Shown piece after piece: positions 5,207 through 13,747 of a stretch of DNA of 29,058 nt. The notes below the pieces were generated by a model that was given only the letters and a program-made list of their open reading frames with translations, was not told where the DNA came from and ran no database searches. The first letter of the stretch is position 1, and each line of letters begins with the position of its first letter. A program made the position numbers and the translations under genes. The stretch is from a virus: the IMG/VR virus record IMGVR_UViG_3300037882_001839, positions 1-29,058 of that record; one strand, given 5' to 3'.

Positions 5207-6997
5207 CTAATTATTATTTGCCGTAATGCCGATTGCTTTTATTAAAATCTTTAAAGGCTCTGATCCTAAAAATGCACCGGAGTTCACCTGGTCCAATGTT
5301 TTTTGTGCGTATGGCTTCAGATTAAACTGCCCAGGCTCAAAAGGTTTTACTTGTGGCGCAATACCTGGTTGAAATACCTGTGCCTTCATAGGCTTTGATG
5401 CTCTAACAATATTTTGCTCTGCTTTAACTATGTCACCCCAAACATCTTTGCCAAAAAGATTTTGCAATGATTCACGTCCGTATTTGTCTAGTGCCCCGCC
5501 AAAAGAGGTGGCCGATGATGACGATCTTGCTAAATCATTCAGTACAACATCTTGAATTGGTTTTCGTAGAGCAGGCTGTTTTGTAATTATTTCGCTTATT
5601 TTACTTCCAGAAAAAACATTTCTTGCAGAGTCAACAATTTGCTCAGAAGTTTTTTCACCCAAAGATTCAAAAAATTCAAAAATCGGTTTGTTCTCACTAA
5701 ATGATTTTTTTACAGACTTTACTAGGGCTGCTTCTTCTGGAGATGCTATTACCTCCAAAGCATCATTAAGATTGTTTCTTGCAATATTATAAACCGAACC
5801 AAAAGCTTTGTTTTCCCCGCTCCTGCTTAACACTCCAAAATTTGCAAGTGATCCTAACTCTTTGAGCTTCCTGTTGAGCGTGATTAGAGTAGGGTTTTCT
5901 ACTAAATCTTTGCTAATGAGTGACAATCTTGTATAAAAAGATTTCAGCTCAGGAGCCCGCACTTTACCAATTGCCTTTTCTAAAATATTGCCTTTTACGT
6001 CAGTCAACCCAGCATCATTTAAAATTGAAAATATTTGTTGCCTCACCGGTTCGACTGATACTTTTGCGCCGCTGTTTTTATTTATGATTGGGTTTAAAAC
6101 CGCTCCAACATTTTCATTAAATGCCAATTCTGCACTTTTTGCACTGCTAACCAGATCTTGCCCAGCCGCTACCCTTGGCTGTGCCCCCATCTTTTGCGGC
6201 AACAATTTTATGCCTTCTTTTGCCTGCTGTTGCGCAGCTAATTTTGCGGCCTGTGCTTCTGCCTTTTTAACAAGAAAATCTGCCTTCCTCTGGCTTTCTT
6301 GCAGATTAAAATCCATGGCAACATCTGTTTTTGTTTGTTGAAAGGCCGATCTCCTTGCATCCTCAGCAACATTAAACGCAGTTTTTGCAGCAGCTTCTTT
6401 TGCAATCCGCATTTTTTTGATCGCTGGACCAATTGGCAAAACGCCAGCGGGATTTAAGTTTTCAATTCCTTCTCTTACAAAATTAGAAAGCCCGCCAGGG
6501 ACCAAATTGTTTACAAACTTGGCAGCATTGCCAGCCCCTTTTAGCGTAGCACCAATGGCCTTGGCAGCAACACCGCCGCCCATATCCATAACAGAGTTTG
6601 TTAAAAAATCATCAAGAGTGTTGTATGTTGACTGCCCCAACGTTTCTCTGGGCGCATACCCAAGAGATTGTTTTAAATAACGCTCTGTTGCTCCACCTGC
6701 AGAACCTAACACCCCAGCGCCAGCAGCCGAGGTTAACACTGCCCCTGGCCCAGTAGGGGCGCCAGCGCCGGCCCCGATAATCCCACCGCCAATTGCCCCA
6801 ACAGTAGTTAATGGCCTGGCATCTAAAAATTGATTAAACTTACCACCAGGCTGAAAAAATCCTGGTTGAGATTGAACGCCAGTATCATTCTTAGGCACAA
6901 CCCCGCGCTCCCTTAATTTGCCAAGAATGACAGCTTTTTCAGTCGGCAATTTGCCGCGCTTCTCTAGCTCTAACATTATGTTTATGCGTTCATCCAT
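5207..6997 (-). CDS. Large internal virion / DNA-ejection protein candidate
   Basis: The 596-residue protein has a short helical N-terminus, a long Gly/Ala-rich hydrophobic segment (about residues 62-105, 'VGAIGGGIIGAGAGAP' and onward) with further Gly/Ala hydrophobic patches to about 170, and then a long Ala/Lys/Gln/Glu-rich helical region (about 195-275) and a mixed helical C-terminus. Amphipathic Gly/Ala segments plus long helices are typical of podovirus internal proteins that leave the capsid with the DNA and form a conduit across the envelope. The position fits: several adjacent proteins (7009-9415) also look like virion internals, and fibres follow. No catalytic motif is seen. It could alternatively be a tail-needle or tape-like protein. 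Confidence 0.55.
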   Translation of the reverse strand: MDERINIMLELEKRGKLPTEKAVILGKLRERGVVPKNDTGVQSQPGFFQPGGKFNQFLDARPLTTVGAIGGGIIGAGAGAPTGPGAVLTSAAGAGVLGSAGGATERYLKQSLGYAPRETLGQSTYNTLDDFLTNSVMDMGGGVAAKAIGATLKGAGNAAKFVNNLVPGGLSNFVREGIENLNPAGVLPIGPAIKKMRIAKEAAAKTAFNVAEDARRSAFQQTKTDVAMDFNLQESQRKADFLVKKAEAQAAKLAAQQQAKEGIKLLPQKMGAQPRVAAGQDLVSSAKSAELAFNENVGAVLNPIINKNSGAKVSVEPVRQQIFSILNDAGLTDVKGNILEKAIGKVRAPELKSFYTRLSLISKDLVENPTLITLNRKLKELGSLANFGVLSRSGENKAFGSVYNIARNNLNDALEVIASPEEAALVKSVKKSFSENKPIFEFFESLGEKTSEQIVDSARNVFSGSKISEIITKQPALRKPIQDVVLNDLARSSSSATSFGGALDKYGRESLQNLFGKDVWGDIVKAEQNIVRASKPMKAQVFQPGIAPQVKPFEPGQFNLKPYAQKTLDQVNSGAFLGSEPLKILIKAIGITANNN

Positions 6998-7008
6998 ATG
7001 GGCTTACA

Positions 7009-7899
7009 TTAAAGAAGCTTTAAAAGTTCCTCAGTCGTCATTTGATCATACTTGTCAGATAGCTTTTCCAATTCCTGCTTTTGCTGATTCACCTTCATAG
7101 CTGGAGGCAGATTTTCGCCACTTAACTTGATGCCTTTTCCTGTCTTGTCTTTGATAATACTTTGCAAATACTGCACTTGCTCTTCTCTGAGTTTTTTTGT
7201 TGGGGCAGCTAGCATCACAATAGCTTTGTTTATAGACTTGGCATCAGTTTCAGAAACTCGGTCTTGGCCCAGACCTAAGACTAGAAGCGGACCTGCCAGC
7301 TCAGCGTTTGCGTCAAACAATTCTTTTTCCGGTAAATATCCCATCTTTGCGTTAAAGGCATTAACTCCGCCCGTAATGTATTTTGATTTAAATCCAGTCT
7401 CGCCAGAGGGGATTTGCTTTGCAAAATTTATCAGCCCTTTTAGCGCGACAATTGCTGTATTGAATGTCGATTCCTTATCACCTGCCTTAGCCGCCTTACT
7501 CCCCGTCTTAAGTGCATTTGCTAAATCGACATTTCCCCCAGTAGCTTTTAACATCTCGTCATAAGTTAACTGTTCAATTGGCTTCCCAAAAAATTGCAAT
7601 GAGTCGAGAAGGGCTTTATTTCGCTGAGATTCAAATTCGCTTTGCGCGGTCAGATTAGCGGTTTTCTCTGTCTTGGCTTCAGCCGCTACCCCAGGCAAAT
7701 TCACAATGCCGTTTCTGCCAGTGATAACTACATTAGGCGCCTGAGGTGGACTGCCAAATGTTTTCTGCGGGTTGCCGCCATTCATACTAGAATTAACAAT
7801 TGCGCCAACTCCACTCGTGCTTGTTCTGCTGTTTGGTACAAAGCCGATAGGCTGTTGCTGTGTGGTGCTTCTTTGCTGACTAAATGGCACAAATGGCAT
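7009..7899 (-). CDS. Virion protein, unknown (ejection-module candidate)
   Basis: The 296-residue product has a disordered, Gln/Ser/Asn-rich N-terminus (residues 1-60) and then a globular, mostly helical domain with 'ALLDSLQFFGKPIEQLTYDEM' and 'KGLINFAKQIPSGETGFKSKYITGG' segments. A charged C-terminal coiled-coil-like end follows (from about 265, 'QKQELEKLSDKYDQM'). It lies between the 115-aa protein and the large ejection-protein candidate with gaps of about 10 bases, so it is probably part of the same set. I recognise no catalytic residues and no family name. Confidence 0.5.
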   Translation of the reverse strand: MPFVPFSQQRSTTQQQPIGFVPNSRTSTSGVGAIVNSSMNGGNPQKTFGSPPQAPNVVITGRNGIVNLPGVAAEAKTEKTANLTAQSEFESQRNKALLDSLQFFGKPIEQLTYDEMLKATGGNVDLANALKTGSKAAKAGDKESTFNTAIVALKGLINFAKQIPSGETGFKSKYITGGVNAFNAKMGYLPEKELFDANAELAGPLLVLGLGQDRVSETDAKSINKAIVMLAAPTKKLREEQVQYLQSIIKDKTGKGIKLSGENLPPAMKVNQQKQELEKLSDKYDQMTTEELLKLL

Positions 7900-7910
7900 T
7901 ATTTACTCCA

Positions 7911-8258
7911 CTATTTGATAATTTCATAAAGCGACGGGTCAAATTCATTTTCAGGAATTGTCCCCTCCGCGCCGTCTTTTAGTTGTCTCACGGTTAACAT
8001 TCTCGGTACACCGCCATTTGTACTTTGCGAGTTGACGCCGTTTTGCTGGCCTCCACCCATTCCTAATTGCTGCATTAAAAGCATTGTCAGAGGGTCAACT
8101 TGCTTTCCTCCAAGGCCAAGCATTGCCAATTGGTTATTGCCTAGCTGATCTATTCGAGGCCCATATTTCTCCGCTTGCCTTAGTTGCATAGGAAATCTAA
8201 GACCGGATGTAATCCCCTGCCCTAAAGCGTTTCCCAACATTGCCCATCTACTACCCAT
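7911..8258 (-). CDS. Small virion protein with conserved-looking 'GTIPENEFDPS' C-terminus
   Basis: The 115-residue protein has an N-terminal Gly/Leu-rich helix ('WAMLGNALGQGITSGL'), a Met/Gly/Gln-rich middle ('TMLLMQQLGMGGGQQNG') and an acidic C-terminus 'VRQLKDGAEGTIPENEFDPSLYE'. C-termini of the form 'G-x-x-G-T-I-P-x-x-E-F-D-P-x-x-Y' occur in several phage virion proteins encoded near ejection genes; this is recalled as a pattern, not verified by a search. The gene is 12 bases downstream of the Hint-domain protein and probably belongs to the same internal virion module. Confidence 0.5.
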   Translation of the reverse strand: MGSRWAMLGNALGQGITSGLRFPMQLRQAEKYGPRIDQLGNNQLAMLGLGGKQVDPLTMLLMQQLGMGGGQQNGVNSQSTNGGVPRMLTVRQLKDGAEGTIPENEFDPSLYEIIK

Positions 8259-8269
8259 AAATTACCCCA

Positions 8270-9415
8270 TCAGTTTTTAATTGTTGATCCCAATTTCACA
8301 CCGTTGGAAAAATAAAATCCTTCGCTCGTCAAAATATCGTACGTGTTTGGCGATTCGTGTTCTACCTCGCTAATCGACACGAGCTCGTCAAAATACGGAT
8401 GGCCATTTGACATGATAACTTCACCAGTTTTAAATTTGTGGTTGTAAAATTTATGCTCGCTGTCTCTTTGTCGTGATACCACAGCAAGAACAACGCCACC
8501 ATTAACCTTATCGCCAACCTTAATGTTTTCCACTTCCTCAGTAGCTCCGTTTGGCAATTCGATTTTTGTACCTCTCGGCAAGCACCACATACTAATTGCT
8601 TGGCCTGCCAGAGGAGCCAGACCTTGCAGGAGTCCAGGCTGACCTGCATTTCCAGGAGTCCCGCCAGCTGATAATCCATACAACCTAAACAAATCCTCAA
8701 TTGGTGTACGCTGTTTCTGGATTGCGTACTGAGCAAGCTGCAGCGCCTGCTGGTCAGACACGCCTTGATTTCTAAATATTTCTGCCGCCTGGTTCATTTC
8801 TCTTTGCGCATCAGCTTGTGCTTGGAATTGTTTTGCACCTAATTGCTGCTGTGCTTGTTGTCCTGCCAATTGTGCTAAGGCGTTTGATAGTTGGTCGCCA
8901 GTATCTCTTTTAATATTCTGAGTGCCCTGCAATGCGGCACCTGATTGATAAAGCCCGCGCTTGTTTATTTCTTCGTCAAAGTTAACAAGCTGCTCGTCCT
9001 GTCTTCTGTTTAAAATACTTTCTAAATTTGCCGCTAATGGACTGAACGCATCACCCACAGCCCTTGAAGCGTCAAATGTTTGCGTAAATTGGAATGGTGA
9101 TCTTTGGGCAAAATTTAACTGCGGAAACATGTTCTGATAGTTTTGCGCTGAGCCTTGAATGCCTTGCAGATTACCTAACTGGTTTTGTAGATTTTTTATT
9201 TCGTCTGTCTGTGTGTACTGAGGGTGTTTTGTTTGATAATCAGCAATTTGCTGCTCCAATGATTGAATCATGGAGTTGTTGGCGTCTTGAAATTGGGGAT
9301 TTGCGCCAAACAGGTTGCCAGTAAACAACTGGTTTAAAATGTTTCCTTGCTCCTCCCAACCAGGACCGCGAAACGCTTCTGCATCATTGCCAGAGCTTCC
9401 AAATAAAAAACTCAT
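8270..9415 (-). CDS. Virion protein with C-terminal Hint (intein/hedgehog-like) domain
   Basis: The 381-residue protein has two parts. Residues 1-277 are Gln/Asn/Ala-rich and helical ('NSMIQSLEQQIADYQTKHPQ', 'LAGQQAQQQLGAKQFQAQ'), typical of an internal or tail protein. Residues 278-381 match a Hint fold: the N-terminal nucleophile Cys278 in 'CLPRGTKIELPNG', then 'IKVGDKV', a 'SNGHPYF' motif (His of the TxxH type) near residue 339, and a closing 'TYDILTSEGFYFSNGVKLGS'. Hint domains perform an N-to-S acyl shift at the first Cys and cleave or transfer the upstream peptide. The end lacks the His-Asn pair and C-extein of a splicing intein, so splicing is not expected but N-terminal cleavage is possible. 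A processed protein of about 277 residues in the virion is the natural prediction. Confidence 0.78.
   Translation of the reverse strand: MSFLFGSSGNDAEAFRGPGWEEQGNILNQLFTGNLFGANPQFQDANNSMIQSLEQQIADYQTKHPQYTQTDEIKNLQNQLGNLQGIQGSAQNYQNMFPQLNFAQRSPFQFTQTFDASRAVGDAFSPLAANLESILNRRQDEQLVNFDEEINKRGLYQSGAALQGTQNIKRDTGDQLSNALAQLAGQQAQQQLGAKQFQAQADAQREMNQAAEIFRNQGVSDQQALQLAQYAIQKQRTPIEDLFRLYGLSAGGTPGNAGQPGLLQGLAPLAGQAISMWCLPRGTKIELPNGATEEVENIKVGDKVNGGVVLAVVSRQRDSEHKFYNHKFKTGEVIMSNGHPYFDELVSISEVEHESPNTYDILTSEGFYFSNGVKLGSTIKN
8273..8584 (-). other. Hint domain coding segment inside virion protein
   Basis: This segment encodes residues 278-381 of the protein above. It starts at the TGC codon for Cys278, directly after a Trp codon, and runs to the last Asn before the stop. 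It contains the Hint N-terminal block, the GD turn, the Ser-x-x-His motif and the C-terminal 'NGVKL' strand. It is about 104 residues long, which is the size of a minimal Hint domain without a homing endonuclease. Confidence 0.72.
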
Positions 9416-9425
9416 TTAAATACCG

Positions 9426-9971
9426 TTACGCCGATACCTCTTTCCCCGATTTTTTATGTAACTTGTTAAAATTACTTTTTGTCACACAGTACCTAATGAC
9501 ATCATGAAATGACCCGTTTTGATATATCTCGTGCTTCAATTCTGCCTCTTTGGTCATTCCCAACTTGCCAACACATTTTATCGCAGGCACATTGTCAATT
9601 CTTACTGTGCAAATAGCTTTGTAAAAATTCATCTGGTTAAGCAAATAATCTAAAAGCATTATTGAAGCCGCCACACCATGCTTACGCCCAAAATGCTTGT
9701 TATCAATTAACGTCCCAACAAAGGCATTTCTATGCCTTTCCTCAATCCTACTAATTGTTGCCATGCCCATTATTTCTTTCACATTACTAGCTTTCGTAAT
9801 AACAAACACTATATTTTTGCCATTCATGTGCGAATTTATTTCGACTGAGTTCATTACCGGAGCATTACAAAAAAAATAATCATAATCCCCCGAAAGTTGC
9901 CAGGCGTAAATATACGGCCACATTTCAGGCTCATAAGGCACAAGCCTTATTTCATCGTTGTTCAGGCGCAT
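9426..9971 (-). CDS. GNAT-family N-acetyltransferase (RimJ/RimL-like) in the virion operon
   Basis: The 181-residue protein resembles the RimJ/RimL-type acetyltransferase family. An N-terminal 'IRLVPYEPEMWPYIYAW' segment is followed by a beta strand 'NIVFVITKAS', 'EIMGMATISRIEERHRNAFVGTLI' (strand beta4 region), an acetyl-CoA loop 'KHFGRKHGVAA' replacing the usual R-x-x-G-x-G/A, and the C-terminal 'VRIDNVPAIKCVGKLGMTKEAELKHEIYQNG', a typical 'N-x-x-A-I-x-x-x-x-K-L-G-F' block. GNATs transfer acetyl from acetyl-CoA to an amine, in this subfamily usually a protein N-terminus. It lies between the S74 fibre and the Hint-domain protein in the late operon, so it may act on virion or host proteins late in infection; the substrate is unknown. 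Confidence 0.82.
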   Translation of the reverse strand: MRLNNDEIRLVPYEPEMWPYIYAWQLSGDYDYFFCNAPVMNSVEINSHMNGKNIVFVITKASNVKEIMGMATISRIEERHRNAFVGTLIDNKHFGRKHGVAASIMLLDYLLNQMNFYKAICTVRIDNVPAIKCVGKLGMTKEAELKHEIYQNGSFHDVIRYCVTKSNFNKLHKKSGKEVSA

Positions 9972-10021: not shown

Positions 10022-10930
10022 TTATAAATGAAGCTTAGATTTAATAAAATCTATCTCCCCTTTCAATTCCTTGAGTGCTAGCACCATCGGAGCAATTAGC
10101 TCATGATAGCGCATACCCATAAACTCGCCACTTTTCTCAACGACAGAAGTATTACTGTCAATAATTTGATCTACTTCCTGGGCAATAAATCCATAATGGA
10201 TAAAATCTTGTCCATCACTTTCCTTAGTGTCAATCCATTGGAAGCTGACAGGGTTTAGTTTTGCGATTAATTCAACCCCTTGTTCTAATGGCTTGATGTT
10301 CTTTTTGAGTCGTTCATCAGAAGTGTTGATTGTCCCATTAGTTGCAAAGATTTCAGTAAAACGAAAGCTACTGTCACCAACTGGATAAGTGTTGTTGGTA
10401 GCTGGAGAGATTTTGCCAGTTCTAGTATTATAATTCACGTTTATATCAAACGTGTTTGATGCCTCATTGACTGATAAAGCTGCATTACCAGAGACAGTCA
10501 GGGAAAAAACCTCTGTTGATTCCACATACTTTATACTCGTCTCTGGTGTACCATCACCCAAAATCAGTTTCTTAGAGTCCCCTATGGAAACATCGTAAGA
10601 GCTATTAATTGTAAAAGTGTTGGCCGTTTCGTTGATTTTTAAAGCCTCATTGCCAGAAACAAAGATACTCAATATCTCGTCGGCGCTGCTGTAAATATAA
10701 TCATGAGATGACCTGTCGGCGTCAAAGACAAGTTTTGCGCCGCCATTCAGCTTAGTGTCCACTGTATGAGTATGAATGCCTGTCCAAGTGTAGGTTGTTG
10801 TCAAATTCATGTTTGACGAATCAATAGCCGCGTTTTGCAGCGTATACAGTGGATTAAAGCGCGCATTGACCTCTAAAGCGTCCGCCGTAGTTCCATTAAC
10901 AAATGTGTATGGGTCTGTTTGTACTGCCAT
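10022..10930 (-). CDS. Tail fibre protein with C-terminal S74 intramolecular chaperone peptidase
   Basis: The 302-residue protein has an N-terminal part with beta-rich repeats ('NEALKINETANTFTIN' near 94-109 and 'NAALSVNEASNTFDIN' near 149-164) that would form a trimeric fibre, and a C-terminal S74 domain from about residue 200. The domain shows 'TSDERLKKNI' with Ser204 and Lys209, the spacing of the Ser-Lys dyad in endosialidase-type chaperones, and later 'PVSFQWID' and 'GFIAQEV'. In the family this domain drives trimerisation and then cuts itself off just before the Ser. Cleavage here would leave a mature fibre of about 203 residues. The start overlaps the preceding stop as TAATG, so translation is coupled. 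Confidence 0.85.
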   Translation of the reverse strand: MAVQTDPYTFVNGTTADALEVNARFNPLYTLQNAAIDSSNMNLTTTYTWTGIHTHTVDTKLNGGAKLVFDADRSSHDYIYSSADEILSIFVSGNEALKINETANTFTINSSYDVSIGDSKKLILGDGTPETSIKYVESTEVFSLTVSGNAALSVNEASNTFDINVNYNTRTGKISPATNNTYPVGDSSFRFTEIFATNGTINTSDERLKKNIKPLEQGVELIAKLNPVSFQWIDTKESDGQDFIHYGFIAQEVDQIIDSNTSVVEKSGEFMGMRYHELIAPMVLALKELKGEIDFIKSKLHL

Positions 10931-11193
10931 TATGGGTTACTATATGGTGACCAAGAGCCATTCTTGTTTATATACAGGGCAGTCGTTGCCCCGCTGACTC
11001 TTATGTGCATATCTCCGTCTTTGCCCCCTGTCGGTGCGGCTGTGGTTGTTGTAAAAGTTACGTCCTGAAAATCCTGATTTTTTAATTTAAAGTAAACGTC
11101 CTGCATCCATTTTTCCAATTCGTAAAAAAATCCGCGCATCGACATTGGGATATCGTCGGAAGGCGGCAGTGCTGGGTACTTACGTAAAGTCAA
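10930..11193 (-). CDS. Small fibre-base/tail protein, unknown
   Basis: The 87-residue product starts at a TTG codon preceded by a strong GGAGGAG ribosome site, overlapping the stop of the upstream gene. It contains 'MSMRGFFYELEKWMQDVYFKLK' (an amphipathic helix) and a C-terminal 'GKDGDMHIRVSGATTALYINKNGSW' segment. Phrases such as 'G-x-x-G-D-x-x-x-x...YxxxNGxW' are frequent in small phage fibre proteins ('dockerin-like fibre caps'), so a minor fibre-base role is plausible but unproven. Stop and next ATG overlap as TAATG. Confidence 0.55.
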   Translation of the reverse strand: MTLRKYPALPPSDDIPMSMRGFFYELEKWMQDVYFKLKNQDFQDVTFTTTTAAPTGGKDGDMHIRVSGATTALYINKNGSWSPYSNP

Positions 11194-12782
11194 CTCTCCT
11201 CCACATATGCAGGCTGATAGCCCAAATTAGTAATGCCTATGTTTAACTCGTTTGTAATCATCTGCTCTGAAGCGTTGTTGTGATTTATTTGCACAACAAA
11301 ATACCTGCCAAAAATTGAGCCCTCGTCACTCGAATCAACATTAGACAACTCGACCCTTGTGTATTCAATATTTGGCGCGCTCCAATTTTCACTACCCCAA
11401 TTAAACTCGCCCCATATGGCGCCGGTAGCACTAAGAGCAATGGTCCCACTACCGCTATTTAAATCAGTCACAACACCGACAGAAGCATTAGTTGCCGTTC
11501 GTTGCGTGGTTAAAATACTCAAATCGGTAAGCATTTTTAATGTCGTGGCTGAACCAAAATCTAACTTTCTAGTTTGCCAAAATCCATTGATACCAGTGAC
11601 ACCTTCATCCAACTGCCCAGAATCTTGCTTTAGCGCAAAGCCTAGATAATCCCCAGTTATCAGCACATCACTTCCGCTTTCCTTCCATGTAGTCATGGCG
11701 TTTGCTTTGATCCCAGTATGATAAAGAATGGAACTTAAAGCTTTTCCTTCGGCATTTGAAAACGCATCATTGGCATAATCATAAACAACAATCTGGTTAT
11801 TCTGTGTCGTACTTGCCGTTGTTAACGCAATCCAATATTGTGACCGTGTAGTATAGTTTGCTGATACGCTTTTTGATCTTCTGTCATCGTTCATGCCGTC
11901 CATTAAAGGCTTTGCTGGGTCACTCAAATCTACTGTATTCTTTGATCCGTTAAAGCCCTTTAAGTATCCATCCTTGCCAAGAAAAATTAAAATATTTCCA
12001 TAGCGCCTTGAAGACACTTCCTGGATAGACCAGTGTGACAAAGTGCCGTCGTTTGAAATGACTCGATCAGCAAAAATATCCCTGTAGTTAGATCCTGACA
12101 CTGACCAAATTGCAGACTCCTGAAATACAATCAGACGGTCAGCAAAAACCGCCAGCCCTGTAATATACTCGCCCTTATTTTCAAATCTTACTAAATCAGT
12201 CGCAACCGTCCATGATTCTCCGTCAAGAATGCCAGACCAATATAAAATATCTTTATAAGCCACCCACAATTTATTTTTATGAACTACCGGATAATTAAAA
12301 TTTCCAGGTAGTCCCGTGATCGTCAACGCAGCCGCATTCCCGCTGCCAGTCCACTTTATCGGCGGGTTGGTCCCATTTGCTGCAATAATAATGTCATTTG
12401 TCGATGACGCATTTTTAAACTTTGCAAAACTCCAGTGAATATCTTCGTCATCAGTTATTGTCACTGCCCCAGTTTTATCAGTCCAAGCGTTTGATGCGTA
12501 CTGCTTAAATGCGTCTCCGCCAATCCCAACTTGATACAATGTATTATCTAACTTCGCCTCGAATAATCCTGTGATTTCTTTTGCTGTAGTGTCAGTTTTT
12601 TCTTTAAACGCAACTGTGTGCTTTTTTGTCGAGCCCTGCCTTGTCTCAACTGAATGCTCAGTAATATTCACATTCTGCAACGCAGACGCTTCTCGCGGGT
12701 CTGTAGAGATGTCTGAATATTTGTTATTCAGACCTAGAAACCTTTTGATTGAAATAGGTTGTGATGTCGTCTCAAGCCCCAT
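11190..12782 (-). CDS. Tail hub / packaged-DNA stabilisation protein (gp10-like, probable beta-propeller)
   Basis: The protein is about 530 residues. It opens 'ISIKRFLGLNNKYSDISTDPREASALQNVNI', a beginning typical of phage stopper/hub proteins that thread against the capsid portal. Repeated beta strands follow, with Trp-containing motifs such as 'YPVVHKNKLWVAYKD', 'LAVFADRLIVFQESAIWSV' and 'NILIFLGKDGYLKGF', suggesting a propeller. In P22-like podoviruses the equivalent (gp10) plugs the portal after packaging and carries the tail needle. I chose the ATG at 12782, which overlaps the upstream stop as TAATG and has AGGTGG at proper spacing. A GTG nine bases upstream lies inside that ribosome site and is less likely. 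Confidence 0.7.
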   Translation of the reverse strand: MGLETTSQPISIKRFLGLNNKYSDISTDPREASALQNVNITEHSVETRQGSTKKHTVAFKEKTDTTAKEITGLFEAKLDNTLYQVGIGGDAFKQYASNAWTDKTGAVTITDDEDIHWSFAKFKNASSTNDIIIAANGTNPPIKWTGSGNAAALTITGLPGNFNYPVVHKNKLWVAYKDILYWSGILDGESWTVATDLVRFENKGEYITGLAVFADRLIVFQESAIWSVSGSNYRDIFADRVISNDGTLSHWSIQEVSSRRYGNILIFLGKDGYLKGFNGSKNTVDLSDPAKPLMDGMNDDRRSKSVSANYTTRSQYWIALTTASTTQNNQIVVYDYANDAFSNAEGKALSSILYHTGIKANAMTTWKESGSDVLITGDYLGFALKQDSGQLDEGVTGINGFWQTRKLDFGSATTLKMLTDLSILTTQRTATNASVGVVTDLNSGSGTIALSATGAIWGEFNWGSENWSAPNIEYTRVELSNVDSSDEGSIFGRYFVVQINHNNASEQMITNELNIGITNLGYQPAYVEES

Positions 12783-13747
12783 TAAGCCCACCTAGGAAAT
12801 GATGCCGGTAGTCTCGCCTCAATCACATCTCTCGGAGCGTCAACACTATCCAGTGACCACACCCCATTTGGCTGATAACATTCGTCACGCATGTCTTTAA
12901 TTCTTGATTCTAATTGTTGGAATGTGAGCTGCGCCATTGCAGAATTATTCAAATGCTTAAAGCACTCAGTCTTTGCGTACAATTCAGGTGCGTCGTGATA
13001 TTGCTCAGGCAATAGTGAAATATCATCATCACCATAAATATTTGGAAGCTTCAGCGTAAAATCATAATAGATTGTGAGAGTACTTGAAGGAATTGTAAAA
13101 AAATCAACTATCGGATGACTCGCAGCCCTATCGTATGCCGCTAAAACAAGATTCGTCACGCCACCAGAATTTGAGGTTAGCGTCACCTTGCCAACACTTG
13201 AAGCATCCTTTGACACCCCTAGTATTTTTGTAAAAGTCGTTGTTGTCGAAACAGGTGTCGTGCCTGTTAATGTTTTTTTCTCAACTGTAAAAACATTACT
13301 TGAATCTAACCCCTGAATATTAACGTCCACTGCAGTATCACTTGCTGAACTAGAAGAAATAGCAATTGCACTTGCAGACGATGGCTGATTTTGTACTGGT
13401 GAAAACCCTTTGAGCCGGTAAAGATAAGGAACTCCGGTTGCCGTTGGTCCTGGCTCACGCATTCTAAATTCTTGCTCACTCATGTAACCGATATGTTGCG
13501 GGCTGCTTGTCTCGTAAAAAGTAATTAACTTTGACGTATCAACCAAAGGAGACAACGCATAAGCAGACGTTCCTGAAGCCGTGGTAAGCGTGTACCCGTA
13601 TTGCCGCAGCCACGGCCAGCCACCTTTGGGCCCTTTTGCCGCAACATACTTCTGCCCCCTGTTAAGCCAACGCTTAATTATCCCATCAATATTTGTCGCA
13701 GGATGACATTCAGCCTTAACATTTTTAACCATTTCAGCGACGTTCAA
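12782..13747 (-). CDS. Head-tail adaptor/connector protein
   Basis: The 321-residue product has an N-terminal helical region ('IKRWLNRGQKYVAAKGPKGG', 'WPWLRQYGYTLTTASGTSAYAL') typical of phage adaptor proteins that bind the portal ring. A Ser/Thr/Ala-rich middle domain (about 120-210) looks like an Ig-like insert ('NIQGLDSSNVFTVEKKTL'), and a C-terminal helical segment ends 'LESRIKDMRDECY'. The start is a TTG with AGGAG six bases upstream (a Met codon follows at position 6), so the non-ATG start is credible. It lies between the zinc-finger protein and the hub protein, the order expected for adaptor then hub in the tail-building pathway. The family assignment rests on position and fold pattern. 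Confidence 0.65.
   Translation of the reverse strand: MNVAEMVKNVKAECHPATNIDGIIKRWLNRGQKYVAAKGPKGGWPWLRQYGYTLTTASGTSAYALSPLVDTSKLITFYETSSPQHIGYMSEQEFRMREPGPTATGVPYLYRLKGFSPVQNQPSSASAIAISSSSASDTAVDVNIQGLDSSNVFTVEKKTLTGTTPVSTTTTFTKILGVSKDASSVGKVTLTSNSGGVTNLVLAAYDRAASHPIVDFFTIPSSTLTIYYDFTLKLPNIYGDDDISLLPEQYHDAPELYAKTECFKHLNNSAMAQLTFQQLESRIKDMRDECYQPNGVWSLDSVDAPRDVIEARLPASFPRWA

Follow-up and report, generated by a model that had tools for sequence, protein, structure and literature searches.

A predicted cleavage-only Hint domain at the end of a phage protein in the position of the first ejection protein

The Hint-Bearing Gene

The window, meaning the whole stretch of 29,058 nucleotides that was analysed, is a virus record with terminase, portal, scaffold and capsid genes. 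Its reverse strand carries an open reading frame (ORF) in which a glutamine-rich helical part is followed by a C-terminal module with the motifs of a Hint domain. The parts of this gene are as follows:

8270..9415, (-) strand: Hint-bearing ORF of 381 aa, a Gln-rich helical N-part (residues 1-277) followed by a C-terminal Hint module
8585..9415, (-) strand: N-part, residues 1-277; by synteny a positional homologue of Mx8 p54 and phiGT1_17, with weak sequence similarity
8588..8644, (-) strand: 19-residue stretch of peak hydrophobicity in the N-part, residues 258-276, stopping one residue ahead of Cys278
8273..8584, (-) strand: predicted Hint domain of cleavage-only form, residues 278-381, from the model, structure matches, profile and alignment
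8582..8584, (-) strand: Cys278, predicted nucleophile, with the predicted cut at Trp277/Cys278; invariant in 16/16 family members
8399..8410, (-) strand: block B, S336-N-G-H339; His invariant in 16/16
8336..8341, (-) strand: block F, Tyr359-Asp360; invariant in 16/16
8285..8305, (-) strand: block G remnant, N371-G-V-K-L-G-S377, with Gly-Ser in place of His-Asn

A preliminary description had noted a nucleophile Cys, a GD turn and a Ser-x-x-His motif within residues 278-381, and these are present as described: C278-L-P-R-G-T, V-G-D at 300-302 and S336-N-G-H339. The hallmark of a canonical intein, a C-terminal His-Asn followed by a C-extein with Cys, Ser or Thr at +1, is absent from the protein. 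Block G reads N-G-V-K-L-G-S-T and lacks His-Asn, and the four residues that follow its Ser bring the protein to its end, leaving no C-extein. The last residue is Asn381, but this lies off the block-G position.

Fold of the C-Terminal Module

An AlphaFold2 model of the domain, built with six aligned homologues, is all-beta with a mean pLDDT of 82.5 and a core of approximately 95. Its best neighbours in the PDB are BIL2 of Tetrahymena (Z 12.2), the DnaB and gp41-1 inteins, and Hedgehog (Z 11.3). These matches, at Z 11-12 and an rmsd of approximately 2-2.5 over about 100 residues, describe the horseshoe-shaped, all-beta Hint fold that structure prediction had been expected to give. A full-length AlphaFold2 run returned the Hint region again at pLDDT ~95, with the helical N-part at moderate confidence. 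In the PDB, the profile from the six homologues matched PI-SceI at 1.9e-5 and the gp41-1 intein at 1.2e-4.

The search with Hint families that had been proposed gave a divided answer. Homologues L004 and L098 match Pfam Hint families at 2e-5 to 5e-5, whereas the window domain itself stays below threshold (E 0.004-0.009), scoring 16.9 bits against a gathering cut-off of 28.4 for PF13403 Hint_2 and 17.6 against 32.1 for PF05203 Hom_end_hint. In a relaxed tblastn of the domain against phages, most matches were to annotated proteins of the kind that host inteins (helicases, UvsX/RecA, terminase); the alignments began at the Cys, but E was only 0.5-10. A scan of genome contigs with Hint returned a DnaB intein only, which backs the relationship and not the context. 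Judged from the model, residues 278-381 form a Hint domain. The fold is not new to phage proteins in itself, as Foldseek, run on viral models, lists further phage proteins that are automatically named ‘Hint’.

The module shares its fold and blocks A, B and F with mini-inteins such as gp41-1, DnaB and PI-SceI. It differs from them in lacking both the C-extein and His-Asn, and splicing is not expected: there is nothing for it to join, and the residues for C-terminal cleavage have been replaced.

Gene Neighbourhood

Searches of PHROGs and NCBIfam with the window protein gave nothing significant and no match to phrog_6121, and the full-length protein found no relatives among phages and viral contigs. 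Relatives were reached instead through the capsid protein and through Hint alignments. The genes around the Hint gene are:

11190..12791, (-) strand: tubeB, a tail tube protein like P22 gp10 (hhalign probability of 97.7 across 433 columns, against 1.1 for the reversed control)
9426..9971, (-) strand: GNAT-like protein in the IVPA / P22 gp14 position (Pfam Acetyltransf_3; hhalign probability 78.6 to the phiGT1/Mx8 group)
7911..8258, (-) strand: small gene after the Hint gene; L083 has a gene of similar size after its Hint gene
7009..7899, (-) strand: candidate second ejection protein by position only; L083 homologue in the same place, E 3.4e-8
5207..6997, (-) strand: candidate third ejection protein by position only; L083 homologue in the same place, E 4e-38

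The tubeB comparison used a profile of phiGT1, Mx8, BUCT555 and Bradyrhizobium phage proteins, and the IVPA/P22-gp14 naming of the GNAT-like group follows PMC10386132. Two further genes, one of 87 aa and one for a fibre with a Peptidase_S74 domain, lie between tubeB and the GNAT-like gene, which is directly upstream of the Hint gene. In Mx8, the gene next after the IVPA-like gene is p54, annotated as ‘virion structural protein’; in phiGT1 the same slot holds gene 17 (phiGT1_17), followed by injection proteins. As this order of tubeB, IVPA-like gene and then p54 or phiGT1_17 recurs, the Hint gene, judged by gene order, occupies the slot of the first ejection protein, the position of T7 gp14 and P22 gp7. 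The likeness to these two proteins is one of positional and not sequence homology, for they share the place as first of the ejection genes and show no detectable sequence match to the window protein. Neither T7 gp14 nor P22 gp7 is known to carry such a C-terminal module.

Mx8 p54 and phiGT1_17, virion structural proteins of the phrog_6121 type, resemble the window protein in gene position, in a Gln-rich helical N-part and in a hydrophobic stretch before the C-terminal module, and differ in bearing S74 instead of Hint. Profile comparison of the N-part with this S74-ended family shows weak sequence similarity, at an hhalign probability of 48 and an hmmsearch E of 0.05, so the link is drawn from synteny and the shared junction. 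The fusion of the Hint module to a helical, Gln-rich protein within an ejection gene cluster thus agrees with both the synteny and the full-length model, and the Hint-bearing protein is probably injected into bacteria.

The Hint Family

Repeated rounds of scanning yielded 16 distinct Hint modules, that of the window protein and 15 further members, all of them C-terminal. The window group consists of the window, L004 and L082; the second group has 13 members (L086/L124, L098/L125, L099/L135, L126-L133, L136 and L137). Counted from the alignments, the family that has lost His-Asn numbers at least 16.

Cys1, the block-B His and the block-F Tyr-Asp are kept in 16/16 aligned modules. His-Asn, which type A bacterial intein-like (BIL) domains conserve at their C-terminal end (PMC7765530), is absent from block G in 16/16, and Ser takes the Asn position in all of them (GVKLGST, GVKLKST, PVNSM). 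Since the first-step residues are all kept and the last-step ones uniformly lost, it looks as though N-terminal cleavage has been retained in the family and splicing lost. The reading of the module as a cleaving rather than a splicing form, made from the window alone, is therefore borne out as a prediction. The 11 residues preceding Cys1 fall in the top 4 percent of hydropathy of their own protein in all 16, and approximately 3 to 33 residues follow the block-G Ser across the family (3-5 in the window group).

The Hint modules are under purifying selection. Their dN/dS is 0.09-0.20 in the five pairs that could be estimated, below that of the attached N-part each time; the comparison of the window with L004 is saturated. 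Values this low, and lower than in the N-part, indicate that the module is not a decaying intein. The related proposal of an intein remnant stranded at the end of a truncated gene, which draws on the sequence similarity to inteins, is highly improbable: all 16 modules sit at one C-terminal location although the proteins diverge, they share the Ser replacement, dN/dS is low in the five pairs, and nothing looks truncated, the next gene starting 12 bases past the stop of the Hint gene.

It could also be supposed that the Hint is folded but inactive and stays in the virion protein for good, with a structural or interaction role. Cleavage is so far only predicted, and conservation of fold residues alone would also lower dN/dS. 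However, the catalytic residues of the first step (Cys1, His and Asp) are among the most constant across two divergent groups, in 16/16, and a structural role would have no need of Cys1. An inactive domain is accordingly regarded as unlikely.

In the second group (L086, L098, L099, L126-L137), the place that His-Asn takes in inteins is held, after block F, by an almost invariant PVNSM(I/V)xE and a short tail that is probably helical. The invariant Asn-Ser after Val and the conserved tail could be read as a shortened intein end, with Asn and a +1 Ser, that splices a tail of 20-30 residues onto the N-part. A gapless count from the block-G Gly instead puts the Asn at the His position and the Ser at the Asn position, which makes splicing very unlikely in this group; the window group has no Asn there, and the reading does not apply to the window.

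The N-parts of the two Hint groups show no mutual match, the exception being the window with L004. Typical of the second group are two genes after the Hint gene, of ~590-730 aa and ~1250-1350 aa, sizes like those of gp15 and gp16. No link to this larger group was found with the tubeB profile, and podoviral identity is not claimed for it. Downstream of L082, a gene for 377 aa comes first, and next a protein of 1195 aa that has an SLT transglycosylase domain. The N-part of L098:4732-6405 contains a run of short NxxAGx repeats with a weak Pfam match to an ice-binding beta roll (E 1.4e-4).

L087-L093 were set aside and are not counted in the family, because their Hint, BIL or intein domains belong to proteins of other contexts and mostly have His-Asn. 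One of them, L093:543-2594, carries a pair of Hint domains: His-Asn is present in the inner one and missing from the C-terminal one (CFLKGT..., above the cut-off for Pfam Hint_2). Another, L087:659-3433, is a lambda-J-like tail protein with a BIL-like Hint, including His-Asn, near its N-terminus.

Module Exchange at the C-Terminal Junction

Fourteen positional homologues of the window protein end in Peptidase_S74 or a clear relative of it, with the S-x4-K dyad right after a hydrophobic Gly/Ala stretch (Mx8, phiGT1, BUCT555, L101 from the L064 virus, L102 from that of L065, L103, L105, L108, L109, L116, L117, L119, L057 and L062). The S74 cut falls immediately before the dyad Ser (PMC3742443). 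Other homologues at the slot (L054, L113, L115, L121 and others) have no module and stop at or soon after the hydrophobic stretch, which makes S74 optional there. The window protein has no C-terminal Peptidase_S74 and carries Hint in its place; in the window, L004 and L082, Hint likewise follows the hydrophobic stretch. The layout of the junction is therefore shared, a hydrophobic stretch and then a nucleophile, Ser for S74 and Cys for Hint. The stretch in the window is modest, with a 19-residue mean of 0.57, which is under that of a typical transmembrane helix.

A further type of ending is seen in L104:3486-5045, where a C-terminal module of approximately 64 residues begins with Cys (CWVAREVYG...) after the same stretch and has no Pfam match. 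A module of this type also ends the 706-aa protein L138:3102-5222, which is HMO-2011 gp25. In the window, a separate tail-fibre protein at 10022-10930 (-) ends in Peptidase_S74 with an SDERLK dyad; together with the Hint protein, this gives the virus both kinds of module, the self-cutting S74 and the predicted self-cutting Hint.

Proposed Mechanism and Known Counterparts

Following folding, Cys278 would attack the Trp277-Cys278 peptide bond in an N-S acyl shift, assisted by block-B His339 and block-F Asp360. The thioester would then be hydrolysed or taken by a small thiol. This would release the module and leave residues 1-277 with a free hydrophobic C-terminus.

The Peptidase_S74 or intramolecular chaperone autoprocessing (ICA) domain, known from the K1F endosialidase tailspike and MYRF, is a counterpart in position. 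It is likewise C-terminal and sits at the same junction of positional homologues, and its cut falls directly ahead of the nucleophile with which it begins, as is predicted for the Hint. It differs in having an unrelated fold and a trimer-dependent Ser-Lys dyad, where the window module has the Hint Cys, His and Asp. BIL domains of type B have all intein motifs except the C-terminal one and cleave on the N-side (PMC7765530). Judged by motifs, the window family has the type-B content as defined there, along with the Hint fold. Type B was described from variable regions of bacterial proteins, whereas the Hint modules here lie at the C-terminal end, are fused to phage proteins of the ejection slot and make up a separate sequence group in which Ser replaces Asn.

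The C-terminal Hint of Hedgehog (Hog) is alike in position, in N-side thioester chemistry and in the absence of splicing. It was suggested in the preliminary description that self-cleavage either times release of the N-terminal part or attaches it elsewhere through the thioester. By the second route, Hint would transfer the C-terminus of residues 1-277 to a lipid, a peptidoglycan amine or another virion protein, as Hedgehog does to cholesterol. The residues that permit cleavage would permit transfer too, the fold matches Hedgehog (see above) and the acceptor end is hydrophobic. The window protein, however, has no sterol-recognition or other acceptor region after block G, and the few residues remaining there in its group leave no Hedgehog-like region for adduct recognition. 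Exchange with the cleave-only S74 and the existence of homologues without a module also leave no place for a required adduct. Attachment is rather improbable.

A cap that is removed is the likelier purpose, because the same slot holds S74 or nothing in related viruses. It is thus proposed, as reasonably likely, that the C-terminal cleavage-only Hint is a removable cap which stands in for S74, to which it is unrelated, and which would be severed at Trp277/Cys278. Such a cap may act on the first podoviral ejection protein as a folding or assembly aid, a solubility shield or a release timer, doing the job of the S74 autochaperone at the same junction. The replacement of Hint by S74 or by nothing argues that the module would be temporary, what the virus requires being an N-part whose hydrophobic end is free. 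It does not prove release of Hint, as some S74 domains act as stable protein parts. The cut would be expected before or with assembly, and the cap may protect a membrane-active or aggregation-prone end or act as a folding sensor, as in S74. The T7 protein at this slot, gp14, is water-insoluble in vitro and forms an outer-membrane pore (PMC8954989).

Significance

None of the ingredients of this proposal is new in itself: autocleavage is known for Hint and for S74, N-side cleavage for type-B BIL domains, and Hint occurs in phage proteins. Among the papers searched, no account was found of ejection or internal virion proteins that bear Hint domains, of a cleavage-only Hint family at the ejection slot, or of the exchange of such a family with S74, which is not proof of absence.

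It may tentatively be postulated, as a possibility more doubtful than the cap itself, that autocatalytic C-terminal caps able to replace one another (S74, cleavage-only Hint and perhaps CWVAREVYG) are common on the ejection proteins of short-tailed phages. Up to assembly these would render a membrane-inserting segment harmless, and afterwards they would cleave themselves from the protein; the Hint form would be a distinct phage class with Ser for the terminal Asn. Should the removable cap itself prove true, it would add a Hint family that is cleavage-only by nature and might serve to remove tags. Two unrelated autoproteolytic folds would then have been taken up at one and the same junction of a phage ejection protein; this would point to a general need to free a C-terminal cap from the first ejection protein. 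It would also offer a direct and inexpensive way to probe how insoluble, membrane-active ejection proteins stay safe during assembly.
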